From the NCBI GenBank assembly GCA_002869565.1, contig PKUJ01000020.1:1-64000 (forward strand): DNA of 64,000 nt, read 5' to 3'. The stretch comes from Arcobacter sp. (lineage in GTDB: Bacteria > Campylobacterota > Campylobacteria > Campylobacterales > Arcobacteraceae). Positions within the stretch are counted from its first letter, which is position 1. Every line of letters starts with the position of its first letter. The position numbers and the translations under genes were made by a program. Below the pieces are notes generated by a model. It searched no databases. It was not told where the DNA came from and saw nothing but the letters and a program-made list of their open reading frames with translations. Positions 25,149 to 59,999 of this stretch are shown piece by piece.

Positions 25149-26990
25149 CTATAAAAACTCAGATAAAAAAATTCTTTTATTTCCATCTTTTTTTATCTGA
25201 GAAAAATTATCCAAATAATCAAGATAAGTAACTAGATATTTTCTACTTAAAGGATGTTTCTTTTTGAAGTTTGCTATATCTATATATCCTTCTTCTTTAA
25301 TAATATTTTTCATCTCTTGAACTATATTTGTCAAACTTTGTGCATGAATAAATAGATTATGTTGTAATCTTATTACAGCTTTCTTTGCACATAGTGCTTT
25401 TAAAATATCATCTCCCATTTTTCTATCTAAATCCAAATCATCATAGATATTATATGGTGCCGTAGGAGCTAAGTCTTCTTTCTCTAATCTTTCTAAAACA
25501 GCGCTTTCTAATCTTGATTTAAAGTCTTCAATAATAGTAGAATTTTTATATAGATTTCCATCTTTTACTAAGAAGTTTTCTTCAAGGAGTTCTTCTAAAA
25601 CTGTTTCTATAAAACTTTCACTTGCCCATTTTAATCTTAATTGAATTGAAGCATTTGAAAGTAGGGCAAATTGGTTTTTGATATAGATATTTTTGATACT
25701 ATCTTTGATGATATTTTTTGTCTCTTTTGGATATAACACTAAAGATTTTTCATCTATAAAAGTATTTTCTAGATTTTTTGCATATTCTAAAGCTTTCTCA
25801 TGACTTAGTGCAAATCTTTGTGCTGAGGATACAAGACCTAATCCTTTTTTATGTGCGTTTAAAAGTATTTCAAAAGCTTTTGATATATTTTCTTTTTTTA
25901 ATGCTTCTAAGAGTTCTAATTTTTGAGATTTTTTCATAGGGTCCATAACAGGATTTAAAACCTCTCCACCTGCAATTGTATCATTTCCTTGCCGTATGAT
26001 TAGTTTCTCTTTATAGATGGAAAATATTGGCTCTGAAGTCTTTATCATGGCAAATCCATTTTGAAGTGATTCTGTACTATTAAAAAGTAAAATTTTACCC
26101 TCTATTTTTTTAGAACCAATAAATATAGAATAGCTTTGGTTATGTTTAAGTTCTCTATTTTTTAAACTATCAAATGAAATATCAATAGTATCAAAACCCC
26201 TTAAATAACCTTTTTTTGAAATTACAAAACCTCTTTTTATATCATTTGTTTTTACACCATTTAGATTTATTGCTGTTCTATTTGATATATTTGAAACTTC
26301 GCTATCTATTCCATGCACTTGTAGATTTTTAATTTTTGCTTCTTTTTTAATATCACAAATAAATAGTTTGTCATTTATTTTTATAGGTCGTCCTAGAACT
26401 GTTCCTGTTACAATAGTACCTGCTCCTTGTGAAGAAAAAACTCTATCAACGTAATACCTAAAGAAATTTTCTTCAATTTTTGTATTTGCATTTAGTGAAA
26501 AAAGTTTCTCTTTTAAAGTTTTAATTGAGTTTTCATCATAGATTGAAACTGTAGTTGAAAAGAGTAAGTCAAAGCCATACTCTTTTACATACTCTTCAAT
26601 TTCTTTTGTTATTGACGGAAGTTGATCTTCTTCTACTAAATCTTTTTTTGTAATAGTTAAAATGGCATTTTTAATACCAAGAAGTGATAAAATTTGTAAG
26701 TGTTCAGTTGTTTGAGGCATAATCTTTTCTGAAGCACTAACTACAATCATCACACAATCAAAAGAGAACGCTCCTGCAATCATATTTTTAACAAGTTTTT
26801 CATGCCCCGGAACATCAATAAATGCAATATTTTGTTTGTCATTTGAGATATTTGAAAAACTTAAATCAATTGTAATACCTCTTTGTTTTTCTTCATTTGT
26901 AGTATCTCCTTCAAAACCATTTAAAGCTTTTATCAGAGCTGTTTTACCATGATCAATATGTCCACAAGTTCCTATTATGTAGTTATTCAT
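25149..26990 (-). CDS. selB: Selenocysteine-specific elongation factor
   Basis: This 613-residue GTPase carries Sec-tRNA to the ribosome at UGA codons marked by a SECIS hairpin. G-domain motifs are GHIDHGKTALIKAL, DVPGHEKLVKNM and TKKD. Beta-barrel domains follow, and residues about 370-613 form the C-terminal winged-helix repeats that bind SECIS RNA. Its ATG overlaps the selA stop (TAATG), so the two are translationally coupled. Its known clients here are the two fdhA genes. Confidence 0.95.
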   Translation of the reverse strand: MNNYIIGTCGHIDHGKTALIKALNGFEGDTTNEEKQRGITIDLSFSNISNDKQNIAFIDVPGHEKLVKNMIAGAFSFDCVMIVVSASEKIMPQTTEHLQILSLLGIKNAILTITKKDLVEEDQLPSITKEIEEYVKEYGFDLLFSTTVSIYDENSIKTLKEKLFSLNANTKIEENFFRYYVDRVFSSQGAGTIVTGTVLGRPIKINDKLFICDIKKEAKIKNLQVHGIDSEVSNISNRTAINLNGVKTNDIKRGFVISKKGYLRGFDTIDISFDSLKNRELKHNQSYSIFIGSKKIEGKILLFNSTESLQNGFAMIKTSEPIFSIYKEKLIIRQGNDTIAGGEVLNPVMDPMKKSQKLELLEALKKENISKAFEILLNAHKKGLGLVSSAQRFALSHEKALEYAKNLENTFIDEKSLVLYPKETKNIIKDSIKNIYIKNQFALLSNASIQLRLKWASESFIETVLEELLEENFLVKDGNLYKNSTIIEDFKSRLESAVLERLEKEDLAPTAPYNIYDDLDLDRKMGDDILKALCAKKAVIRLQHNLFIHAQSLTNIVQEMKNIIKEEGYIDIANFKKKHPLSRKYLVTYLDYLDNFSQIKKDGNKRIFLSEFL

Positions 26991-28333
26991 TATGCAATCT
27001 CTCTAATAGCATTTTCAATTATTTTTATATCACCTTCTTGTATAGTTCTAAAATCAAGTAAGAATTGTTCATTTTCAATTCTACCTACAATATTTTTAGC
27101 TCTTAAAAGTTTTTCTATTTTATTTGGTTTATAATTTTTAAACTTAACAGCTAATGCAATAGTAGGAATTTTTTTATTTGGTGTTGTTCCTCCACCTATA
27201 ACTGTTTGAGTTTCTATTATCTCACATTGACAAATATCATCAATAGCAGTTTTAAGCATAGTTGCATTTTCTTTTAATTTAGAAGTTTTTGTAAAAAGCA
27301 TTTTAAGCGTAGGTATATCGTCAATACTTCCTAATAAAATTGATTTAACATTTTCTTCAAGTAGGGCGAGAGTAATTTTATCAACTCTTAACATTCTTAA
27401 AAGTTGGTTCTTTTTTAGTTTTGCAATTAGCTCTTTTTTTACTATAATTATTCCAGCTTGTACACTTCCTAAAAGTTTATCACCTGAAAAGCTAAGTAAA
27501 CTAGGATTGTATTCCATGATTTTTTTTACAGATGGTTCTGATTCATTTAGTCCATATGGTAAATCAATAAAATGTCCACTTCCCATATCGTAGTAATCTA
27601 TTATATTATTCTCTTGTGCAACTTTTACAATATCTTCAAAATCAACTTCACTAGAAAAACCTTCAATAGAGTAGTTTGATTTATGAACTTTCATAAGCAT
27701 TGAGGTTTGTTCACAAACTGCATTTTCATAATCTCTAAGGTGAGTTTTATTTGTAGTTCCTATTTCTACTAATTTTGCTCCACTACTTGCCATTACATCT
27801 GGAACCCTAAAGCTACCGCCAATTTCTACAAGTTCACCCCGACTAACTACTACTTCTTTATTTTTTGCAAAAGTATTAAGGATTAGAAATACCGCACTTG
27901 CATTGTTATTTACAATTAATACATCTTCACAGCCTAATGTTTGGCAAATCACTTTAGAAATATGAGCGTATCTTTCTCCTCTTTTTCCTTTTTCTAAATC
28001 ATATTCAAGATTGTTGTAACTAGTAGCTATATCTTTGGCTTTTAAAAAGGCTTTTTCGTTTATTAAACTTCTTCCTAAATTTGTATGAACAATTACACCT
28101 GTTGCATTTATAACTTTTTGTAAAGATGGTTCTATTATCTTTTCATACTCTTCTTTTACTTTGTTGATTAAATCATTTTCATTTATTTCTTCAATTTCAT
28201 TATTTAAAATAGAATCTCTTAAATTTTGTAAGATTTTTTTTGAAATTGTGGAAATTAAAGGTGTAGACATACCCTTAAATTCATCTTTTGCGATAAATTT
28301 ATCAACTTTAGGAATAGACTTTAGTAAAATCAT
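26990..28333 (-). CDS. selA: L-seryl-tRNA(Sec) selenium transferase
   Basis: This 447-residue PLP enzyme converts Ser-tRNA(Sec) to Sec-tRNA(Sec) using selenophosphate. Motifs are INATGVIVHTNLGRSL, VNNNASAVFLIL, SRGELVEIGGSFRVPDVM, and the PLP lysine in LLSFSGDKLLGSVQAGII. It is the first gene of the selA-selB pair and is divergent from tRNA-Sec 58 bases away. An 18-base dyad shared with selD and fdh promoters covers its start codon. Confidence 0.95.
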   Translation of the reverse strand: MILLKSIPKVDKFIAKDEFKGMSTPLISTISKKILQNLRDSILNNEIEEINENDLINKVKEEYEKIIEPSLQKVINATGVIVHTNLGRSLINEKAFLKAKDIATSYNNLEYDLEKGKRGERYAHISKVICQTLGCEDVLIVNNNASAVFLILNTFAKNKEVVVSRGELVEIGGSFRVPDVMASSGAKLVEIGTTNKTHLRDYENAVCEQTSMLMKVHKSNYSIEGFSSEVDFEDIVKVAQENNIIDYYDMGSGHFIDLPYGLNESEPSVKKIMEYNPSLLSFSGDKLLGSVQAGIIIVKKELIAKLKKNQLLRMLRVDKITLALLEENVKSILLGSIDDIPTLKMLFTKTSKLKENATMLKTAIDDICQCEIIETQTVIGGGTTPNKKIPTIALAVKFKNYKPNKIEKLLRAKNIVGRIENEQFLLDFRTIQEGDIKIIENAIREIA

Positions 28334-28391: not shown

Positions 28392-28491
28392 TGGGGGGTA
28401 TGTGACCCTGGTGGGCACCGCAGGCTTCAACCCTGATCGGCGGTTTTTGTGTAAACGCCGCGGTAGGTTCGATTCCTACACCTTCTCGCCA
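28392..28491 (+). tRNA. selC: tRNA-Sec (anticodon TCA)
   Basis: The cloverleaf has an anticodon loop CTTCAAC with TCA, closed by CAGG/CCTG. The long variable arm (CGGCGGTTT with AAACGCCG) is typical of tRNA-Sec. A T arm (GTAGG TTCGATT CCTAC) and encoded CCA at 28489-28491 complete it. The 8-base acceptor pairs TGGGGGGT with ACCTTCTC, with three G-T wobbles and an unpaired first position, which is unusual. The D stem GTGACC/GGGCAC has one A-G mismatch. It lies divergent from selA, as expected for a selenium locus. Confidence 0.88.
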
Positions 28492-28499
28492 AATTTTGC

Positions 28500-28800
28500 T
28501 AACTAATACTCTATCTTATCTTTCAATATATTAAAATATTATACCTTATTCTCTCAACTTCATAGTGATATATCCACAGAAGATAAAGTCATAAAGCTTA
28601 TTAATAGGGGATTGTACCTAAATCTAAATCAGTTAAATCTTAAAAAAGTAAAGAAAAATTTACCAAGTAGCTTTGGGCTATAGGATGTCTCACTTATTTT
28701 TACTAATGGTTTGAGTGAATATTGTTTGATAGACTACTTAGGAATATTTTAGCTATCTTTATCATTATTACTGGAGTTTAGTATATTTATAGTTTGACTT
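28500..28800 (+). pseudogene. Possible decayed coding sequence downstream of tRNA-Sec
   Basis: One plus-strand frame has no start but reads as about 58 open codons ending NLKKVKKNLPSSFGL, then continues past two TAG stops as hydrophobic sequence (LSEYCLIDYLGIF). It may be the relic of a small gene displaced when the toxin-antitoxin pair arrived. I recognise no family. The rest of 28492-28985 holds no other readable feature. Confidence 0.25.
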
Positions 28801-28985
28801 AAGTTTTAAAATTAGTAAATAGACCAGACCTTGATTGTAGATACAAAAATGCTATAAAAAGAGGGAAAAATGAAACATATATTACTAAGCCATTAGCTTT
28901 GTATTATGACTAATAATTTCATACAACGATTAAAAGAGAGACATAAATATTGTCTTTCTTTATCGTTTATGTTAAAAAACTATTG

Positions 28986-29014
28986 TTGACATAATTACGA
29001 TATTCATATATAAT
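28986..29014 (+). promoter_or_regulatory. Consensus sigma-70 promoter of the toxin-antitoxin pair
   Basis: TTGACA at 28986-28991 and TATAAT at 29009-29014 are separated by exactly 17 bases. They lie 22 bases before ATG 29037, with AAAAGGA as ribosome site. It is the best-matching promoter noticed in the window, which fits constant expression of an antitoxin-first operon. Confidence 0.85.
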
Positions 29015-29036
29015 GTAATAATTAAAAGGATATAAA

Positions 29037-29558
29037 ATGACTCAGGTACAAATTAGTAAATATTTAGATATTCCCTTTGCTACTCTTAATGATTGGAAAA
29101 AAGAAGATAGTAATAGAAATAGACTTTATCAACTTCTTATTAATCTTGATGAAAAAGAAGTACAAAATAAACTTAATAAAAAAACCACTCATAGATTCTT
29201 TCATATTCTAAATAGAAATATAGATAATAGTTCAAAATTTACTGCTAATGATATTAGAAAAGCTTATAATAAAAAAGATTATCATAAAGCAACTATTCAA
29301 GAACAAACTATATATGCAAAGTTTTTTAAAGAACTAGAAATAGAAGAATTAGATGAATTTATTCGAACTTTTAATGTATCAAAAAGAAATATTAAAAATA
29401 TTTATATTTCATCTCCTTTTAGAAATTTAGCTGGTGTTGCAAAAATTTGGGATAAAAGATTTAGACTAAAACATCTTGAATCAAATAATCAAAATAAAAA
29501 AACACTACCTATTGCTCTTCAAAATATTTTAAATAAAAAAGAATTATCTCATGTATGA
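29037..29558 (+). CDS. Probable antitoxin with N-terminal helix-turn-helix
   Basis: This 173-residue protein begins with a helix-turn-helix-like segment (TQVQISKYLDIPFATLNDWKKE) followed by a charged helical body. It is the first gene of a two-gene unit and overlaps the AbiEii-type nucleotidyltransferase gene by 8 bases. By position and HTH it is the likely cognate antitoxin and autoregulator, although it does not read as classic AbiEi. The family is not firmly recognised. Confidence 0.65.
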   Translation: MTQVQISKYLDIPFATLNDWKKEDSNRNRLYQLLINLDEKEVQNKLNKKTTHRFFHILNRNIDNSSKFTANDIRKAYNKKDYHKATIQEQTIYAKFFKELEIEELDEFIRTFNVSKRNIKNIYISSPFRNLAGVAKIWDKRFRLKHLESNNQNKKTLPIALQNILNKKELSHV

Positions 29559-30312
29559 TTTTTCAAAACAAAAAGCTATGCTTGAGGCAACACTTTTACT
29601 TCTAAAAGAGAGTAAGATAAGTGATGTCTCAACTCTCGGTGGTGGAACAGCTTTGGCTTCTTATTATTGGAACCACAGATATTCAACTGATATTGATATT
29701 TTTATATATGCTGAAGTTGATAAAAAACATCTATTAAAAGAATCTAATTGGAGTGAAAAAGTTAAAACTTCAATGCAAAAAATTGGATATAAAGGTAATT
29801 TTAGAAGTCATCCTATTTATTCAGAAATAGTAATAAACGAGGATAGTAAGATTCAAATTTTTGATGTTGTTAAAAAATCAAAAAATGCTTATCAAAAAGT
29901 AAACTTGTGGGGCCATGAATTACTAATTGATACAGTAGAAGAAATTATTGCCAAGAAGATTCATTATAGAGCTGACAAAGGTAATTCAAGAGATTTGTTT
30001 GATATTGCAATTGCTTTTCATAAAGAGCCTGATATTTTGACTAAAATAATTTTAAAAAAAGAGAAAATTATTTCACTTTTTACTACAGTAGCTAATATTT
30101 ACAAAAATGAAGAATTGAAAAATTTATATTTTGAAGAAATAAAACAGATGAATCCAAATAAACAGTATGAATTTTTAGCTTTAAATAGTATTGAGTATTT
30201 ATATAATTTACTTGAAAATATATGTGGAGCATATGATATATCACATGAGTTAACTAGTGAAGATTTTTTTGAGATTGAGAGTTATGTTTTCAATAATATA
30301 AATATTAAGTAA
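29551..30312 (+). CDS. AbiEii/AbiGii-type nucleotidyltransferase toxin
   Basis: This 253-residue protein has the nucleotidyltransferase core LGGGTALASYYWNHRYSTDIDIF, with the GG and D-x-D catalytic signature. The family continuation EIIAKKIHYRADKGNSRDLFDIAIA follows. AbiEii-type toxins block growth by modifying RNA and can abort phage infection. It follows its presumed antitoxin in the same transcript and is closed by a strong hairpin. The pair sits between tRNA-Sec and selD, interrupting an otherwise selenium-only region. Confidence 0.85.
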   Translation: MYDFSKQKAMLEATLLLLKESKISDVSTLGGGTALASYYWNHRYSTDIDIFIYAEVDKKHLLKESNWSEKVKTSMQKIGYKGNFRSHPIYSEIVINEDSKIQIFDVVKKSKNAYQKVNLWGHELLIDTVEEIIAKKIHYRADKGNSRDLFDIAIAFHKEPDILTKIILKKEKIISLFTTVANIYKNEELKNLYFEEIKQMNPNKQYEFLALNSIEYLYNLLENICGAYDISHELTSEDFFEIESYVFNNINIK

Positions 30313-30353
30313 CTTACTAAAATCTTAATATATAAGATTTAGTAAGTTTTTTT
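30311..30353. terminator. Strong hairpin terminator after the toxin gene
   Basis: AACTTACTAAAATCTTA pairs with TAAGATTTAGTAAGTT, followed by seven or more T residues on the plus strand. It lies between convergent toxin and selD genes and may serve both. Confidence 0.85.
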
Positions 30354-30360
30354 GTCTAGT

Positions 30361-31395
30361 CTAATGTATAATTATTGGCGTTAAACCTCTTGGTATTACT
30401 TCCCCTATAATAGTTGCATATCCATAAGTTAAATCTTCTACTCTTTTTATATATTCTTTTGCATCTTTTGGGTCCATTGAAATTAATAAACCACCTGACG
30501 TTTGTGCATCACAATACATTTGATAACATTTTGAAGTTGCACACATGATAGTGGTCTTATCTTCTAAATATTTCATATTTCTTTTTGTTCCACCAGGAAC
30601 TACATTTTGCGCTGCTAGTTCTTCTGCTTCTGGTATAACTGGAACAGCTCCACAGTGTATAGCAAATGACGTTAGGTTTGTTGTTGACTCTAAAGCATGA
30701 CCTAGTAGTCCAAATCCTGTAATATCTGTACAAGCACTTACATCATAATCTCTTAAAAGTTTAGATGGTAAGTAGTTTAATGTTTCCATAATTTTAACTG
30801 CTTCTTTTGTAGTTGCTTCATCTAATAAATCTCTTTTGATGGCAGTTGTTAAAATACCCATACCTAAAGGTTTTGTTAAAACTAATACATGACCAATTTT
30901 GGCAGTATTATTTCTTAATATTTTATCCGGATGAACAATTCCTGCAACAGATAATCCATAATACATTTCTGGACTTTCTATTGTATGCCCTCCCATAAGA
31001 AGACCACCACACTCTTTTATTTTTTCATTTCCACCCTTAAGTATTTCTCCTAGTGCATCTTTTGTTTGGTTTTTATTATCAAACCCAACAATATTTAGAG
31101 CAGTCTTAACATCTGCTCCCATTGCAAATACATCAGAAAGTGAATTTGCAGCAGCAATTTTCCCATATACATACGGGTCGTCAACTACTGGTGTTATAAA
31201 ATCAAGTGTCTGAACTAATGCTTCTTCATCATTTAATTTATAAACTGATGCGTCATCACTGTTTTCAAATCCTACAAGCACTTTATCATTGCATGGTACT
31301 AAGCTACTAATTGTTTGTTTAAGATCCCCCGGACCCATTTTAGCGGCTAAACCTGCAGCTTGAACGAATTTGGTTAATTTATATTCGTTATTCAT
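30361..31395 (-). CDS. selD: Selenide, water dikinase with Leu at the catalytic Cys/Sec position
   Basis: This 344-residue enzyme would make selenophosphate from selenide and ATP. Family features are complete: DDASVYKLNDEEALVQTLDFITPVVDDP, GKIAAANSLSDVFAMG, GGHTIESPE, TDITGFGLLGH, PGGTKRN and DAQTSGGLL. Where E. coli has AGCGCK (Cys17, Lys20), this protein reads AGLAAK, keeping Lys but replacing Cys with Leu (codon TTA). A TGA Sec codon would differ by one base. In E. coli the Cys is required, so activity here is uncertain. The selD promoter region is shared with the divergent reductase operon. Confidence 0.92.
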   Translation of the reverse strand: MNNEYKLTKFVQAAGLAAKMGPGDLKQTISSLVPCNDKVLVGFENSDDASVYKLNDEEALVQTLDFITPVVDDPYVYGKIAAANSLSDVFAMGADVKTALNIVGFDNKNQTKDALGEILKGGNEKIKECGGLLMGGHTIESPEMYYGLSVAGIVHPDKILRNNTAKIGHVLVLTKPLGMGILTTAIKRDLLDEATTKEAVKIMETLNYLPSKLLRDYDVSACTDITGFGLLGHALESTTNLTSFAIHCGAVPVIPEAEELAAQNVVPGGTKRNMKYLEDKTTIMCATSKCYQMYCDAQTSGGLLISMDPKDAKEYIKRVEDLTYGYATIIGEVIPRGLTPIIIH

Positions 31396-31745: not shown

Positions 31746-33068
31746 ATGGGTGTACAAGAACATAGAGATCTTCTTTCGAATATTGGTGTTGATGTAGATA
31801 GACATGCAACAATGATGAGTATGGGTTTAGAATCATACCAAAATCAATTTATGTCACAAGAAAACAGACCAGAAGGTATGAAATATTTTGATTGGTTTAT
31901 GAGTGAAATTCAAGGTGGCAGAATTGCAGAGATTAATGAACTAAGAAAAAACAAAAAACCAGCTGTGGGAACTTTTTGTATTTTTGTTCCAGAAGAGATT
32001 ATTGTAGGAGCTGGTGGAGCATGTTTTGGTTTGTGTGGGGGAAGTCCTGCAACTATTGCAGATGCAGAGACTGAACTGCCTAGAAATATCTGTCCTTTGA
32101 TTAAATCAGCTCATGGTTTTAAACTTCAAAGAACATGTGCCTATACACAATCTTCAGATTTCATTTATGGGGAAACTACTTGTGAAGCCAAGAAAAAAAC
32201 TTGGGAGATACTCAATAAACATCATCCTGTTCATGTAATGAATATTCCACATATGAAAAGAGAAAAAGATTTAAAAATGTGGAAAGAGGAGATTGTAGAG
32301 TTTAAAGAGCATATTGAAGAGGTGATGGGTGAAAAATTATCTTTAGAAGAGATGATTAATGGAACTAAAATCATAAATGAGAAAAGAAAAGCTATGCAAA
32401 GACTTGATGCTCTTAGAGGATTAAATCCTGATGTTGTGCCAATTAGTGGAAAAGATGCTCTGTTTGTAAATCAAATGGGATTTTTAGATGATCCAAAAAG
32501 ATATACGCAAAAAGTGAATGAACTGTGTGATGAGTTAGAAAAAAGAGTTGAAGAGAAAACTTCAGTATTTGAAAAAGATATACCAAGACTGATGGTTTTA
32601 GGAACTCCAATTGCTCCTCCAAACTGGAAACTTCATACAGCTGTTGAAGGTTCTGGAGGGGCCATAATAAATGAAGAGTCATGTATAGGGCACAGATATT
32701 ATAAGGACAATGTTGATTTAGATAATATTGAAACTGAAGATGATTTGATGGGTGAACTTATGAAAAGATATAGTGCAGTTGATTGTGCTTGTTTTACTCC
32801 TAATACTCCAAGAATTGATAAAATCTTACAAATGTATAAAGATAGATGTGCAGATGGAGTTATTTATTATACTCTATCTTTTTGTCATACCTACAATGTA
32901 GAATCACATCTTGTAACTGAAGCCTTAGAAGCTGCTGGAATTCCTTGTCTGGTTATAGAATCTGATTATTCACCTGAAGATGCAGGACAAATTAAAACAA
33001 GAGTTGAAGCCTTTTTAGAGAGTATTTCTTTTAAAAATAAAGCTTTGAAATTTAAATCAAAAAACTAA
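31746..33068 (+). CDS. Double-cubane-cluster anaerobic reductase (2-hydroxyacyl-CoA dehydratase family)
   Basis: This 440-residue protein belongs to the HgdB/FldB-like family and matches the double-cubane-cluster protein branch. Cysteines for Fe-S clusters occur in GACFGLCGG, RNICPLIKS, QRTCAY, GETTCEAKKK, EESCIGHRYY, VDCACFTPN and SFCHTYN. Such proteins use ATP, through an activase, to send very low-potential electrons to small substrates; natural substrates are mostly unknown. The cognate activase follows after one base. Its setting next to selD and a YedF-like gene suggests a selenium-linked role (inference). Confidence 0.85.
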   Translation: MGVQEHRDLLSNIGVDVDRHATMMSMGLESYQNQFMSQENRPEGMKYFDWFMSEIQGGRIAEINELRKNKKPAVGTFCIFVPEEIIVGAGGACFGLCGGSPATIADAETELPRNICPLIKSAHGFKLQRTCAYTQSSDFIYGETTCEAKKKTWEILNKHHPVHVMNIPHMKREKDLKMWKEEIVEFKEHIEEVMGEKLSLEEMINGTKIINEKRKAMQRLDALRGLNPDVVPISGKDALFVNQMGFLDDPKRYTQKVNELCDELEKRVEEKTSVFEKDIPRLMVLGTPIAPPNWKLHTAVEGSGGAIINEESCIGHRYYKDNVDLDNIETEDDLMGELMKRYSAVDCACFTPNTPRIDKILQMYKDRCADGVIYYTLSFCHTYNVESHLVTEALEAAGIPCLVIESDYSPEDAGQIKTRVEAFLESISFKNKALKFKSKN

Positions 33069-33069
33069 T

Positions 33070-33831
33070 ATGTACTGGGGAGTAGATGTTGGTTCCACAT
33101 ATACAAAAATATGTGGAATCAATCAAAGCAAAGAGATTATTGATACAAAAATAATACCCACAATTGTCAATCAAGATGAGATTGTAAAAGAGTATTTAAA
33201 AGGTAAAGATATCCGAATGCTTGTCTCCACTGGATATGGAAGACATATGATTGAAGATACCTTTTCTTGTCCTGTAATCAGTGAAATAAAAGCCCATGCG
33301 AAAGGGGCGTATTTTTTTCAAAATGATGCTCAAATGGTTATCGATTTAGGTGGGCAAGATAGTAAAGTAATTTTGCTTGATAAAACAGGTGGATTTATTG
33401 ATTTTAAGATGAATGATAAATGTGCGGCAGGAACGGGCAAATTTTTAGAAATAGCTTCAAATAGAATGGGATTAGATTTAGATGAATTTTCAAAAATAGG
33501 ATTTGATGCCAATAAAGAACTAACAATTTCCAGTATGTGTGCAGTTTTTGCTGAATCGGAAGTTATTTCATTAATTGCAAAAAAAGAGAGTGCTTCAAAT
33601 ATATGTTATGCGGTACATGAATCCATCGCCTCAAGATTGGCTTCTATGGCTAGAAAATTTGCAATAAAAAGTGACTCTATAATTTTTACAGGAGGAGGGG
33701 CTTTAAATGGTTTTTTAGTTCATCTTTTATCAAAAAAACTGGAGAAAAATGTTATTGCTTCTTCTTATCCTCAATTAGTGGGTGCAATTGGTGCGGCACT
33801 TAGTGGTTATGAAGTCTATAATGAAATCTAA
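33070..33831 (+). CDS. Acyl-CoA dehydratase activase-type ATPase (BadF/HgdC family)
   Basis: This 253-residue protein is an ASKHA-fold ATPase with GVDVGSTYTKICG, DLGGQDSKVI, and GGGALNGFL near the C-terminus. Two conserved Cys (DKCAAGTGKFLE and SSMCAVFAESEV) hold a [4Fe-4S] cluster between the two subunits of a dimer. It injects electrons into the double-cubane reductase by ATP hydrolysis. It is the second gene of the operon and ends at a hairpin terminator. Confidence 0.9.
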   Translation: MYWGVDVGSTYTKICGINQSKEIIDTKIIPTIVNQDEIVKEYLKGKDIRMLVSTGYGRHMIEDTFSCPVISEIKAHAKGAYFFQNDAQMVIDLGGQDSKVILLDKTGGFIDFKMNDKCAAGTGKFLEIASNRMGLDLDEFSKIGFDANKELTISSMCAVFAESEVISLIAKKESASNICYAVHESIASRLASMARKFAIKSDSIIFTGGGALNGFLVHLLSKKLEKNVIASSYPQLVGAIGAALSGYEVYNEI

Positions 33832-33879: not shown

Positions 33880-34221
33880 TTATAGTGATACAATATTTTC
33901 AGTAAGAAGCATTTTAGCTGTATCCATAGCATTACCTGCAATACCAACTTTCAAATCATCTCTTTTATTATAATAATCTAAACAAGTTCCACAAGAATAA
34001 ATATCAACTCCTTTATCTTTTATCTTTTTTAGAATTTGAAGGGTCTCATCATCTTCTTGTGCAGTAGTAAGTAAAACAGCACTATTCACACAAACAATTG
34101 CTTTTGGTGTTTCCTCTTGTTCATATATGGCATTTAAAAAACCTTTTACTAGCATTGAACCTAATTCTCCATCGCCAATTTTGTCCGATTTTAAAAAGAT
34201 AGTCTTTTTTGAAGTTTCCAT
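33880..34221 (-). CDS. DsrE/YedF-like selenium-metabolism protein
   Basis: This 113-residue protein resembles the C-terminal DsrE-like domain of YedF, a protein linked to selenium metabolism. Features are FLKSDKIGDGELGSMLVKGFLNAI, an ICVNSAVLLTT strand, and GVDIYSCGTCLDYYN with two cysteines that could carry sulfur or selenium. The N-terminal TusA domain of full YedF (about 200 residues) is missing. It lies convergent to the reductase/activase operon and shares a CTATTCCATAG dyad with selD. Confidence 0.8.
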   Translation of the reverse strand: METSKKTIFLKSDKIGDGELGSMLVKGFLNAIYEQEETPKAIVCVNSAVLLTTAQEDDETLQILKKIKDKGVDIYSCGTCLDYYNKRDDLKVGIAGNAMDTAKMLLTENIVSL

Positions 34222-51315: not shown

Positions 51316-54156
51316 ATGGGTAAGAATATACTTAATAACTTACCTTTGAAAATAGGAAGAAGAAATTTTTTAAAATTAGCTTCAGTTGGTGCAGGATTAG
51401 GAATAAGCAATGCTTTTGCTTCAAATAATTCCATTCGACCAGCAAGTCAAGAAGAAATAAAAAATCCATTTCCTAATTCAAAGATGGTTAAAACTATATG
51501 TAGTATCTGTTCCGCTGGCTGTGGGATTGTTGCTGAAGTTCAAAATGGTGTGTGGGTAAGACAAGATGTCGCTCAAGATCATCCTATTAGTGAGGGTAGT
51601 CACTGTTGTAAAGGGATTGATCAAATTGATTTAGTTAAAAGTAAACAACGGGTTAAACATCCAATGAAAAAAGTTGCAGGAAAATGGGAAAGAATTTCTT
51701 GGGAAACTGCAATAAAAGAAATATCTGAAAAAATGTTAAAACTAAGAGCTGAAAATGGTCCTGATGTAGCAATGTTTTTAGGATCTGCAAAATTTAATTT
51801 ACAACAAGCTTTTTATTTCAGAAAGTTTGCTGCAATGTGGGGTACGAATAATATCGATCACGTAGCTAGAATTTGACATAGTGCAACAGTCGCCGGTGTG
51901 GCGAATACATGGGGTTATGGCGCTATGACAAATCATTTTGGTGATGTGGTCGGACATTCGAAAGCTATATTTATGATTGGAGCAAATTCAGCTGTTGCCA
52001 ATCCAATTGGATTTAAGCATTTTCTACAAGCAAAAGATAGAAATAATGCAAAACTTATTGTTATAGATCCAGTTTATACAAAATCTGCTGCAAAAGCAGA
52101 TCATTACTTAAGAATTAGAACAGGTACTGATATTGCATTTATTTATGGACTTCTACATCTTATATTTAAAAATGGATGGGAAGATAAAAATTTTATAAAA
52201 GAACGAGTTTATGGAATTGAAGAAGTTATTGAAGAAGCAAAAAAATGGACACCTGAAGAAACATCTAATGTTACAGGAATTCCTGCTGAAAAAATAATTC
52301 AAATTGCAAGACTAATGGCTAAAACAAAACCAGCTACAGTAGTTTGGGCCTTGGGAATTACTCAACACAGTACAGGAACATCAAATACAAGAATTTTACC
52401 AATATTACAATTAGTACTTGGAAATATGGGACAACAAGGTGGAGGATGTAATATTATTCGTGGACATGATAATGTTCAAGGATCAACAGATATGTGTTGT
52501 TTAGCAGATAGTTTACCTGGATATTACGGTTTAGGTGAAGGATCATGGAAATATTATGCTAAAGGTTGGGGCGTAGATTACGAATGGCTACAAAAACGAT
52601 TTGCTGCACCTAAATGGATGAATAAAAAAGGATTCTCTCTTGCAAAATGGTGGCAAGGCGTATTACAAGAAGAAAAAACATACTCTTCTTCACCAATCAG
52701 AGCACTTTGGGTTCAAGGTACAGGAATCACTTCTATGGCTCAGACATCAAAAGTTAAAGAAGCCTTAGATAAATTAGACCTTTTAGTTATTGCAGAACCA
52801 TTTGTAAATGAAGCTGCTGTTATTACAGAAAAAACTGATGATATTTATATTCTTCCTGTAGGAACTCAGTTTGAAACTGAAGGTGTAGTTACTGCTACAA
52901 ATAGAACTGCACAATGGAGAGATAAAGTGGTTGATCCCTTATATGAATCAAAAACTGACCATGATGTAATGTTTGAATTTGCTAAGAAATTTGGCTTTTA
53001 TGAAGAGTATACTCGTGCAATGAAGATGGATGTTGTTGATGGTAGACTAAAAACTGTTAAAGAAGATTTCTATTTTGCAGACGATGCAATAAATGAGATT
53101 GCAAGAATAGTTAAAACTATTGGTCTTGGTGGTTGGACAGCTAAAAGATTAAGAGCACATCAAAAACAATGGCATTTATTTGATCCTATAACTTTAAAAG
53201 GACGAGGTCCTATGAAGGGTGAATATTACGGATTACCTTGGCCATCATGGGATACAAAACATCCTGGAAGTCCAATTTTATATGATGTTAATACTCCTGT
53301 TAATGAGGGAGGAATGGGATTTAGAAACAGATTTGGTTTAGAACATGAAGGAAACAGTTTATTAGCAGATGATGCAGTAACAGTTAAAGGGTCTAAAATC
53401 AAAGGTGGATATCCTGAAATTACAAAAGATAATATTGAAGCAGTTCTTGGAATAACTTTGACAGAAGATGAAAAATCTAAAATAGGTTCAAATTGGAAAA
53501 CAGATTTTAGTGGAATTATTCAAGAAAAATGTAGAGCTGCAGGAGTTGCTGTGTATGGAAATGCAAAAGCTAGAGCAAAAGTTTGGACTTTTCCTGATCC
53601 AATTCCAAAACACAGAGAGCCAATTCACTCTCCACGACAAGATTTGGTTGAAAAATATCCAACTTATGAAGATCAAACTGATAACTTTAGAGTGGATGTT
53701 AAATTTAAATCAGAACAAAGCGAGAAAGATTGGTCAAAAGAGTTTCCTACAATGCTTGTTACAATGAGAGTTGTAAACTTAAGTGGAGCAGGGATGCTAG
53801 AGCGTACAAGTAAATATTTATCTCATATCACGCCTGAAATGTTTGCACATATCAATCCTGAGCTTGCAGCAGAGTATGATTTAAGAGATGGAGATGAGAT
53901 GTGGTTACATGCTCCTCAAGGTACAAAGATTAAAGTAAAAGCAATTTATTCTCATAGTGTAACACCTGACAGAATATCCTTGCCATACAATTTTGCTGGT
54001 GTTATGCAAGGTGTAGATATGACTATGAATTATCCAGAGGGCACAAAACCTTATGCGACAGGTGAGAGTTCTAATACAATTACTAATTATGGATTCGACA
54101 TCATTACTCAGATTCCTGAGTTTAATGCAGGTCTTTGTCGAGTAGAAAAAGCTTAA
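51316..54156 (+). CDS. fdhA: Formate dehydrogenase large subunit, selenocysteine-containing (copy 1)
   Basis: This molybdopterin enzyme of 946 residues oxidises formate at the periplasmic face. A Tat signal (GRRNFLKLASVGAG) opens it. The [4Fe-4S] site follows (ICSICSAGCGIVAEV...HCCKG), then in-frame TGA 51874-51876 encoding Sec187 in ARI-Sec-HSATVAGVANTWGYG. Pterin-binding segments such as GNMGQQGGGCNIIRGHDNVQG and a C-terminal dinucleotide-binding domain complete it. The frame is continuous across the TGA, which is the expected catalytic Sec, and a SECIS-like hairpin follows at once. AAGGA precedes ATG 51316. Confidence 0.95.
51874..51912 (+). promoter_or_regulatory. Sec codon and SECIS-like hairpin in fdhA copy 1
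   Basis: After TGA, TCGCC (51890-51894) pairs with GGCGA (51900-51904) around loop GGTGT, about 14 bases from the codon. This position and a G-T-containing loop match bacterial SECIS elements read by SelB. Confidence 0.8.
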
Positions 54157-57146: not shown

Positions 57147-57167
57147 AAAATGTTAAAGGAATTTTAT

Positions 57168-59999
57168 ATGTCAAAAAATACATATGAAGCACTGAAAGCA
57201 AAAATCGGTAGAAGATCATTTTTAAAAATGGCTGCTGTCGCTACTGCTGCTGGTGCAACAAGTATTTTGGCAAATGATGGAGTAACTAGACCTGCAACTG
57301 ATGAGGAAATTAAAAATCCTTTTCCTGGTTCCACAAAAGTTAAAACTATCTGTAATGCATGTTCTGTTGGATGTGGGATTATAGCTGAAGTACAAAATGG
57401 TGTTTGGGTAAGACAAGAAGTAGCACAAGATCATCCAATTTCTCTTGGTGGTCATTGTTGTAAAGGTGCTGATATGATTGATATGGTTAGGTCTGAGGTT
57501 AGACTTAAGCATCCAATGGTAAAAGAGGGTGGAAAATGGAAAAGATTATCTTGGGACGATGCTTTAGATAGAATCGCAAACAAGTTAGCTAATATGCATA
57601 AAACAGCGGGTCCAGATTCTGCAATGTTTTTAGGATCAGCAAAAATGAGTACAGAGCAAGCTTACTATTTTAGAAAGTTTGCAGCAATGTATGGGACAAA
57701 TAATATAGATCATCAAGCTAGAATTTGACATAGTGCTACAGTCGCCGGGGTGGCGAATACATGGGGTTACGGTGCTATGACAAACTCACTTGGAGATATC
57801 CAAAACGCAAAAGCTATTATTATTTTCGGAGCAAATCCTGCGGTAAATCACCCAGTTGGTTTCGGACATTTTTTAAAAGCAAAAGAGAGAAATAACGCAA
57901 AAATTATTGTTATTGATCCTGTATTTACAAAAACTGCTGCAAAAGCAGATTATTATTGCAGAATTAGACCTGGAACAGATATTCCATTTATGTATGGAAT
58001 GTTACATCTTATTTTCAAAAATGGTTGGCATGATGAAAAATTTATTGCTGATAGAGTTTATGGAATGGAAGATATTATGGAAGAAGCTAAAAAGTGGAAT
58101 CCTGAAAAAGTTTCAGATGTTACTGGTGTACCAGTAGATAAATTAATTCAAATTACAAAAGTATATGCTGAATCTACTCCTGGAACACTGATTTGGGCAA
58201 TGGGATTAACTCAACATACAGTTGGTTCATCTAATACTAGACTTGCACCAATTTTACAATTATCTCTTGGAAATATGGGTGAAGAAGGTGGTGGAACAAA
58301 CATTTTAAGAGGACATGATAATGTACAAGGGGCAACAGATATGTGTTGTTTATCTCATACATTACCAGGTTATTATGGTTTAAGTGATGGTTCATGGAAA
58401 TATTTTGCAAGTTCATGGGGTGTTGATTACAACTGGTTGAAAGGTCGTTTCAAAGCTAAAGAATGGATGAATAAAAAAGGGTTTACTCTGTCTCGTTGGT
58501 GGGCTGGAGTTCTTGATGGAAAAAATGGTAACGATAAAATTTCTAATGGAGGAACTAACTTAAAAGCTCTTTTTGTAATGGGTAATGGTATTACTTCAAT
58601 TGCACAACAAGCAAAAGTTAAAGAAGGTCTAGATAATTTAGAAATGTTAGTTCTTTGTGATCCTTTTGTAAATGAAGCAGCTATTTTAACTGATAAACAA
58701 GACGATGTATTTATTTTACCTGCAGCAACGCAATTTGAAACAAGTGGTTCTGTAACAGCTACAAATAGATCTGTACAATGGAGAACTAAAGTTGTTGAGC
58801 CAATGTATGAGTCAAAAACAGACCATGAAGTAATGTTTGAATTAGCAAAAAGATTAGGCTTTTATGAGCAATATACAGCTGGAATGAAAGTTAAAGAGAA
58901 TAAAAAAGATTTCAAATGGCCAGAAGATGCTACTGATGAGATTGCAAGAATTATTAAGACTATTGGTCTTACTGGATGGACTGCAAAAAGAATTAAAAAG
59001 CATACTAAAAACTGGCATATGTTTGACCAAATATCTGGACGTGGATATGGTGAAATGAAAGGTGAATATTATGGATTACCTTGGCCTGTATGGACAGAAA
59101 CTCATGGTGGAAGCCCGATTCTTTATAACATTAATAGAAGTGTAACAGATGGAGGAATGGGATTTAGAAATAGATTTGGTTTAGAACATGATGGTGTATC
59201 TCAATTAGCAGGAGAGGGAAGTGCTCCTAAATTATCTTCTAATAAAGATGGATATCCTGAAATTACAAGAGATAATATTGAAGCAGTTCTTGGAATAACT
59301 TTGACAGAAGAAGAAAAATCAAAAATTGGTAAAAACTGGAAAGTAGATACCTCTAATATTATTGCCCAAAAATGTATGGAAAGAGGAATCGCACCTTATG
59401 GAAATGCAAGAGCTAGAGCAAAAGTTTGGACTTTTCCTGATCAAATTCCAATGCATAGAGAACCACTTCATTCTCCAAGACAAGATTTAGTTAAAAAATA
59501 CCCAACTTATGAAGATAAGGGTAATCATTATAGAGTTGATACTTTATATAAAACTAAACAAAATGAAAAAGATTGGTCAAAAGAGTTCCCTGTTAACTTA
59601 GTTACAGGAAGACTAGTAAATATGAATGGTGCTGGAATGGAAAATAGAGCAAGTAAATATCTTGCTGCTTTAACTCCTGATATGTTCTGTGATATTAATC
59701 CAGATTTAGCAGGAAGACATGGCATTAGAGATGGGGCAATGATGTGGATTCATTCTCCTGAAGGTACAAAGATTAAAGTCAAAGCAAAATATTCTCATAG
59801 TGTTACAGAAGATAGAATTTTCTTACCATTTCACTTTGCTGGTGTTTTTCAAGGTGAAGATTTATCGCACAAATATCCTAAGGGAACTAAACCTTATGCA
59901 GTAGGTGAAAGTGCAAATACAGTTACTAACTACGGTTACGACATCATCACTCAGATTCCTGAGACAAAAGGTGGATTATGTCGAATCGAATTAGCGTAA
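57168..59999 (+). CDS. fdhA: Formate dehydrogenase large subunit, selenocysteine-containing (copy 2)
   Basis: This 943-residue protein is a full paralogue of copy 1. It has a Tat signal (GRRSFLKMAAVATAAGA), the [4Fe-4S] site ICNACSVGCGIIAEV...HCCKG, in-frame TGA 57726-57728 for Sec187 (ARI-Sec-HSATVAGVANTWGYG), and pterin segments (GNMGEEGGGTNILRGHDNVQG). ATG 57168 is preferred because AAAGGA lies 8 bases before it; ATG 57150 would add six residues. The two copies differ at many positions, so they are older duplicates than the fdhC pair suggests. Activity may depend on FdhB1, because fdhB2 is interrupted. Confidence 0.94.
57726..57764 (+). promoter_or_regulatory. Sec codon and SECIS-like hairpin in fdhA copy 2
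   Basis: The TCGCC/GGCGA stem is the same as in copy 1, at the same distance from TGA, but the loop reads GGGGT instead of GGTGT. The loop base at position three has changed from T to G. Confidence 0.78.

Follow-up and report, generated by a model that had tools for sequence, protein, structure and literature searches.

The selD locus

The stretch of DNA analysed here, referred to below as the window, is 64,000 nucleotides long. It contains selD, the other genes for selenocysteine (Sec) decoding, and two formate dehydrogenase genes with in-frame TGA codons. The features needed for the argument are as follows.

25149 to 26990, minus strand: selB, Sec-specific elongation factor, intact (TIGR00475, 308 bits; low dN/dS)
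26990 to 28333, minus strand: selA, Sec synthase, intact (TIGR00474, 558 bits; low dN/dS)
28392 to 28487, plus strand: selC, tRNA-Sec, anticodon TCA, near-identical to sisters by sequence comparison
28501 to 30349: insertion of 1.85 kb that separates selC from the 3' end of selD and carries a two-gene AbiEii-type cassette (boundaries by comparison with the sister genome G004; AbiEii by Pfam and PADLOC)
29037 to 29558: partner gene, first in the cassette
29551 to 30312: AbiEii-type nucleotidyltransferase gene, second in the cassette
30361 to 31395, minus strand: selD, selenide water dikinase (selenophosphate synthetase), 344 aa, intact frame (TIGR00476, 351 bits; PF00586 and PF02769)
31322 to 31336, minus strand: SECIS-like apical hairpin GGGUCC-GGG-GGAUCU, just 3' of the Sec position, identical in sequence to the nearest sisters
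31339 to 31341, minus strand: AAA, codon of the conserved Lys19 (coding sequence and alignment)
31348 to 31350, minus strand: TTA (Leu16), at the catalytic Sec/Cys codon; changed base 31349
31746 to 33831, divergent from selD: double-cubane-cluster reductase (NF040772) and BadF/BcrA-type ATPase pair
33880 to 34221, minus strand: yedF-like selenium-metabolism protein, C-terminal domain only (TIGR03527)
51316 to 54156, plus strand: fdhA copy 1, in-frame TGA at 51874-51876 (U187)
57150 to 59999, plus strand: fdhA copy 2, in-frame TGA at 57726-57728 (U193)
C19:64549-67377, just beyond the window: fdhA copy 3, with an in-frame TGA and 81% identity to copy 2

The product of selD matches the full-length SelD profile, for which the cut-off is 125 bits, and both AIRS domains. 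A search of the genome gave this gene as the single match and found no second SelD copy. Takeover of the function by a second copy was rejected on this result, and an SPS1-like neofunctionalised paralogue, which would stand beside a Sec or Cys SelD, was rejected on the same result. Next to selD, the reductase and ATPase pair and the short YedF are also found together in two congeners (G013 and G002).

The glycine-rich loop of the protein reads AAGLAAKMGPGDL, and the coding strand around the codon of interest is GTT CAA GCT GCA GGT TTA GCC GCT AAA ATG GGT CCG GGG GAT CTT, which translates as VQAAGLAAKMGPGDL. Alignment with phmmer to solved structures places Leu16 opposite C17 of E. coli SelD (3u0o) and C13 of Aquifex aeolicus SelD (2yye, SGCAAKVGPGDL), and Lys19 opposite the conserved Lys of the Sec/Cys-x-x-Lys motif. 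A preliminary description of this DNA had reported a Leu codon at the catalytic position with the conserved Lys kept, and the alignment confirms both. It had also stated that E. coli SelD needs the Cys, in agreement with the finding that the C17S mutant is catalytically inactive (PMC3956282). In a survey of 223 prokaryote reference genomes every SelD had Sec or Cys (PMC4561486). The protein described here has neither at this position, and no Cys relocated into the loop, nor any new private Cys, was found in it. Judged from its sequence, the product is SelD by descent and probably not by activity.

A selenoprotein-type selD has an in-frame TGA followed by a SECIS hairpin; here the hairpin sequence is present and the TGA is not. 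The hairpin agrees with the 5/6-bp SECIS hairpin of the Epsilonproteobacteria (PMC4607533), and an energy comparison found no stability beyond that of shuffled sequences. Because many Cys-type SelD relatives retain the same bases, retention of the hairpin is weak evidence that the loss of the TGA is recent, and it was rejected as proof of this.

The catalytic codon in relatives

SelD is present in 13 of the 15 other genomes of the genus, and the exact codon is TGA (Sec) in all 13, down to 76% identity. The order was covered by a pattern search of 398 genomes with the codon left free, which matched the context at 101 sites in 100 genomes. These comprise 65 TGA, 23 TGT, 12 TGC and 1 TTA, so that Cys is encoded at 35 sites and the sole Leu is the one in this genome. 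A wider sample of loci gave the same picture, with TGA predominant, TGT or TGC in some lineages, and Leu in none. At one of the 101 sites in the order, the Leu codon is, on these counts, not a chance observation. The distribution, with TGA throughout the SelD-bearing congeners and only TGA, TGT or TGC elsewhere in the order, shows that the ancestral codon is Sec. This ancestral TGA has changed by a single base, G to T on the coding strand (31349), and its surroundings are intact. The origin of TTA from a Sec codon by one base change, which had been suggested from the sequence of this genome, is therefore supported. It had also been proposed that SelD from sister strains be aligned, with TGA or a Cys codon there pointing to a mutation or an error here, and the TGA in every SelD-bearing congener points the same way.

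One congener, G008, has two selD genes (C8:75280-76311 and C8:117054-118052). Their products are 76% and 54% identical to the SelD described here, and each gene has one in-frame TGA.

The remainder of the selenocysteine system and the insertion

The genome has selA, selB, tRNA-Sec and TGA-containing selenoprotein genes, the set by which the Sec-decoding trait is recognized. An altered anticodon in tRNA-Sec was ruled out, as TCA is retained. The preliminary description had counted two Sec-dependent fdhA genes; two TGA-containing copies do lie in the window, and the third brings the genome total to three. Extra stop codons seen in sister fdhA genes were disregarded as meaningless, since they lie upstream of the likely start. 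No matches were found to selenouridine synthase (TIGR03167), SelW-like (PF10262) or DUF466 (PF04328) as other users of selenium. A distant formate-dehydrogenase-like protein with Cys is encoded elsewhere in the genome (C2), with a score below the family cut-off.

SelD and SelA are both absent from two of the 16 genomes of the genus (G009 and G014). One of these has no FdhA of this type, and the FdhA homologue retained in G014 has no in-frame TGA. The two genomes are a natural example of coherent loss of the Sec trait within the genus. Neither keeps a TGA-containing fdhA, whereas the present genome does, which points to a recent event here.

Most of the sisters examined have tRNA-Sec immediately between selD and selA; in G004, the sister genome compared directly, it is about 20 bp from the selD stop, and the insertion at 28501-30349 is absent. 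No homologue of the insertion was found in the sister stretches searched. The cassette is preceded by a perfect match to TTGACA-17-TATAAT. If the sisters cotranscribe selD, selA and selB, the cassette would separate selD from selAB in this genome. The insertion may represent a second step in losing the trait, or may have nothing to do with it.

It is conceivable, and on balance improbable, that this lineage is losing its Sec system altogether in two steps, one being the SelD change and the other the insertion, which would in addition cut selAB off from the selD promoter. This overlaps with a recent mutation in selD, to which it adds the insertion. The insertion is not shared by the sisters examined, and the two congeners without SelD and SelA, one of them with a TGA-free FdhA homologue, indicate that such losses occur. 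Against this, dN/dS is not elevated in selA, selB or fdhA, and the TGA is kept in all three fdhA genes.

Age of the change

An alignment of 20 SelD genes has 148 positions that are invariant in the 19 relatives, and Leu16 is the only one of these at which the present SelD departs. Most congeners have 0-3 such private departures, and G008 has 17. By this comparison, one private departure in SelD is not rare; what is rare is that it lands on the catalytic codon.

Rates were estimated for the branch leading to this genome from three-way (trio) comparisons. For selD, dN/dS was 0.16, 0.09 and 0.12 in three trios, and is thus not consistently raised. The values for selB were 0.08-0.11, for selA 0.10-0.23, and for the window's two fdhA copies 0.06 and 0.12. 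All lie inside the spread of neighbouring genes (0.04-0.27). Decay of the Sec system as judged by dN/dS was ruled out by these low ratios, which indicate that selection acted on the system up to the very recent past. Since there is no lasting relaxation and Leu16 is the lone departure, the codon change is either very recent or an error in the consensus.

The second of these would mean that the strain has TGA, that the assembly carries a G-to-T consensus error (C to A on the plus strand), and that SelD is an ordinary Sec enzyme. The codon differs from that of every congener by a single base, selD, selA, selB and fdhA have no other sign of decay, and the three TGA-containing fdhA genes are intact, all of which would be expected of such an error. 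The absence of decay in fdhA, selA and selB fits an error as well as a young mutation, and to that extent counts against the latter. However, the assembly appears sound (99.74% complete, 42 contigs), and wherever a gene of the window has a homologue in a sister, the two align across nearly their full length. An error that hits exactly the catalytic codon is improbable a priori, and a real substitution would not be unusual, given that close congeners, G008 apart, also have private departures in SelD. We regard an error as a serious candidate, and nevertheless as unlikely.

Very unlikely, in our view, is a Leu-SelD that is functional and selected without catalytic Sec or Cys, for example by use of bound selenium from YedF or a NifS-like partner, or in an SPS1-like function. 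The remainder of SelD is under purifying selection and its profile match is intact, and a Leu-type SPS1 does exist in annelids (PMC4561486). A very recent change explains the purifying selection equally well, however, and the annelid protein is a duplicate beside a Sec or Cys SPS2 (PMC4561486), whereas only one SelD was found here. In addition, Leu occurs at no other site among the 101 in the order, SelD has no further private change at conserved sites, and the E. coli enzyme is inactive with Ser in place of Cys (PMC3956282). The specific version in which a partner protein feeds enzyme-bound selenium to a bacterial Leu-SelD, which still supports three Sec-dependent formate dehydrogenases, is likewise very unlikely.

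A probable recent loss-of-function mutation in selD

It is concluded that this gene most likely encodes an ordinary epsilonproteobacterial SelD of the selenoprotein type rather than an enzyme of a new kind, and that either it has recently been inactivated by mutation or its consensus is in error. The reading we prefer, with a probability of roughly 0.6, is a loss-of-function mutation that is real, recent and strain-level; a base-call error ranks second and a working Leu enzyme last. The preliminary description had offered a damaged SelD, a different mechanism or a wrong base. This was the right set of alternatives, although a protein that works differently is unlikely, because the order sample has Leu nowhere else, no Cys compensates for the loss, and nothing suggests an established lineage.

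Under the preferred reading of a recent mutation, a single transversion in this strain would have turned the Sec codon of selD from TGA into TTA, and full-length SelD would then be produced without Sec decoding. The Leu protein should still fold and bind ATP, and would lack the selenol or thiol that takes up selenide. It is expected to be inactive because Leu has no nucleophilic side chain, the loop has no new Cys, and the C17S enzyme of E. coli is inactive; by analogy with that mutant, selenophosphate synthesis should be lost. Conversions of animal SPS1 to Thr or Arg, in place of Sec or Cys, likewise abolish synthesis (PMC4561486). Without selenophosphate there would be no Sec-tRNA, and the three UGA-containing fdhA messages would stop at UGA and give truncated FdhA, so that formate dehydrogenase would be affected. 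The loss of the Sec trait in two of the 16 genomes of the genus lends support to a mutation of this kind.

If the base call is correct, this strain would be naturally null for selD with the rest of its selenocysteine system intact, and might illustrate the first step in loss of the Sec trait. Users of the strain in work on formate metabolism should then be cautious. If the base is wrong, the TTA codon flags an assembly error. Only a working Leu enzyme, unlikely as it is, would alter ideas on the mechanism of SelD.

Comparison with known systems

Among the closest known systems is the Sec-SelD of the Epsilonproteobacteria (TIGR00476; PMC4607533), which has the same length, the same AAG-x-AAKMGPGDL loop, the same hairpin and the same selD/selC/selA/selB cluster. 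The SelD described here is 90% identical to the Sec-SelD of its nearest congeners, and differs from this group in having Leu (TTA) where they have Sec (TGA). The Cys-SelD proteins of E. coli (3u0o) and A. aeolicus (2yye/2zod) belong to the same family by sequence and share the Lys of Cys-x-x-Lys, whereas the present protein lacks Cys both at the catalytic position and in the rest of the loop. Metazoan SPS1 (Thr, Arg or Gly, and Leu in annelids; PMC4561486) is similar in that the residue standing in for the catalytic Sec carries neither selenol nor thiol. However, SPS1 has long persisted as a duplicate alongside a Sec or Cys copy, while the SelD described here is the only copy found and its Leu is private to one genome.
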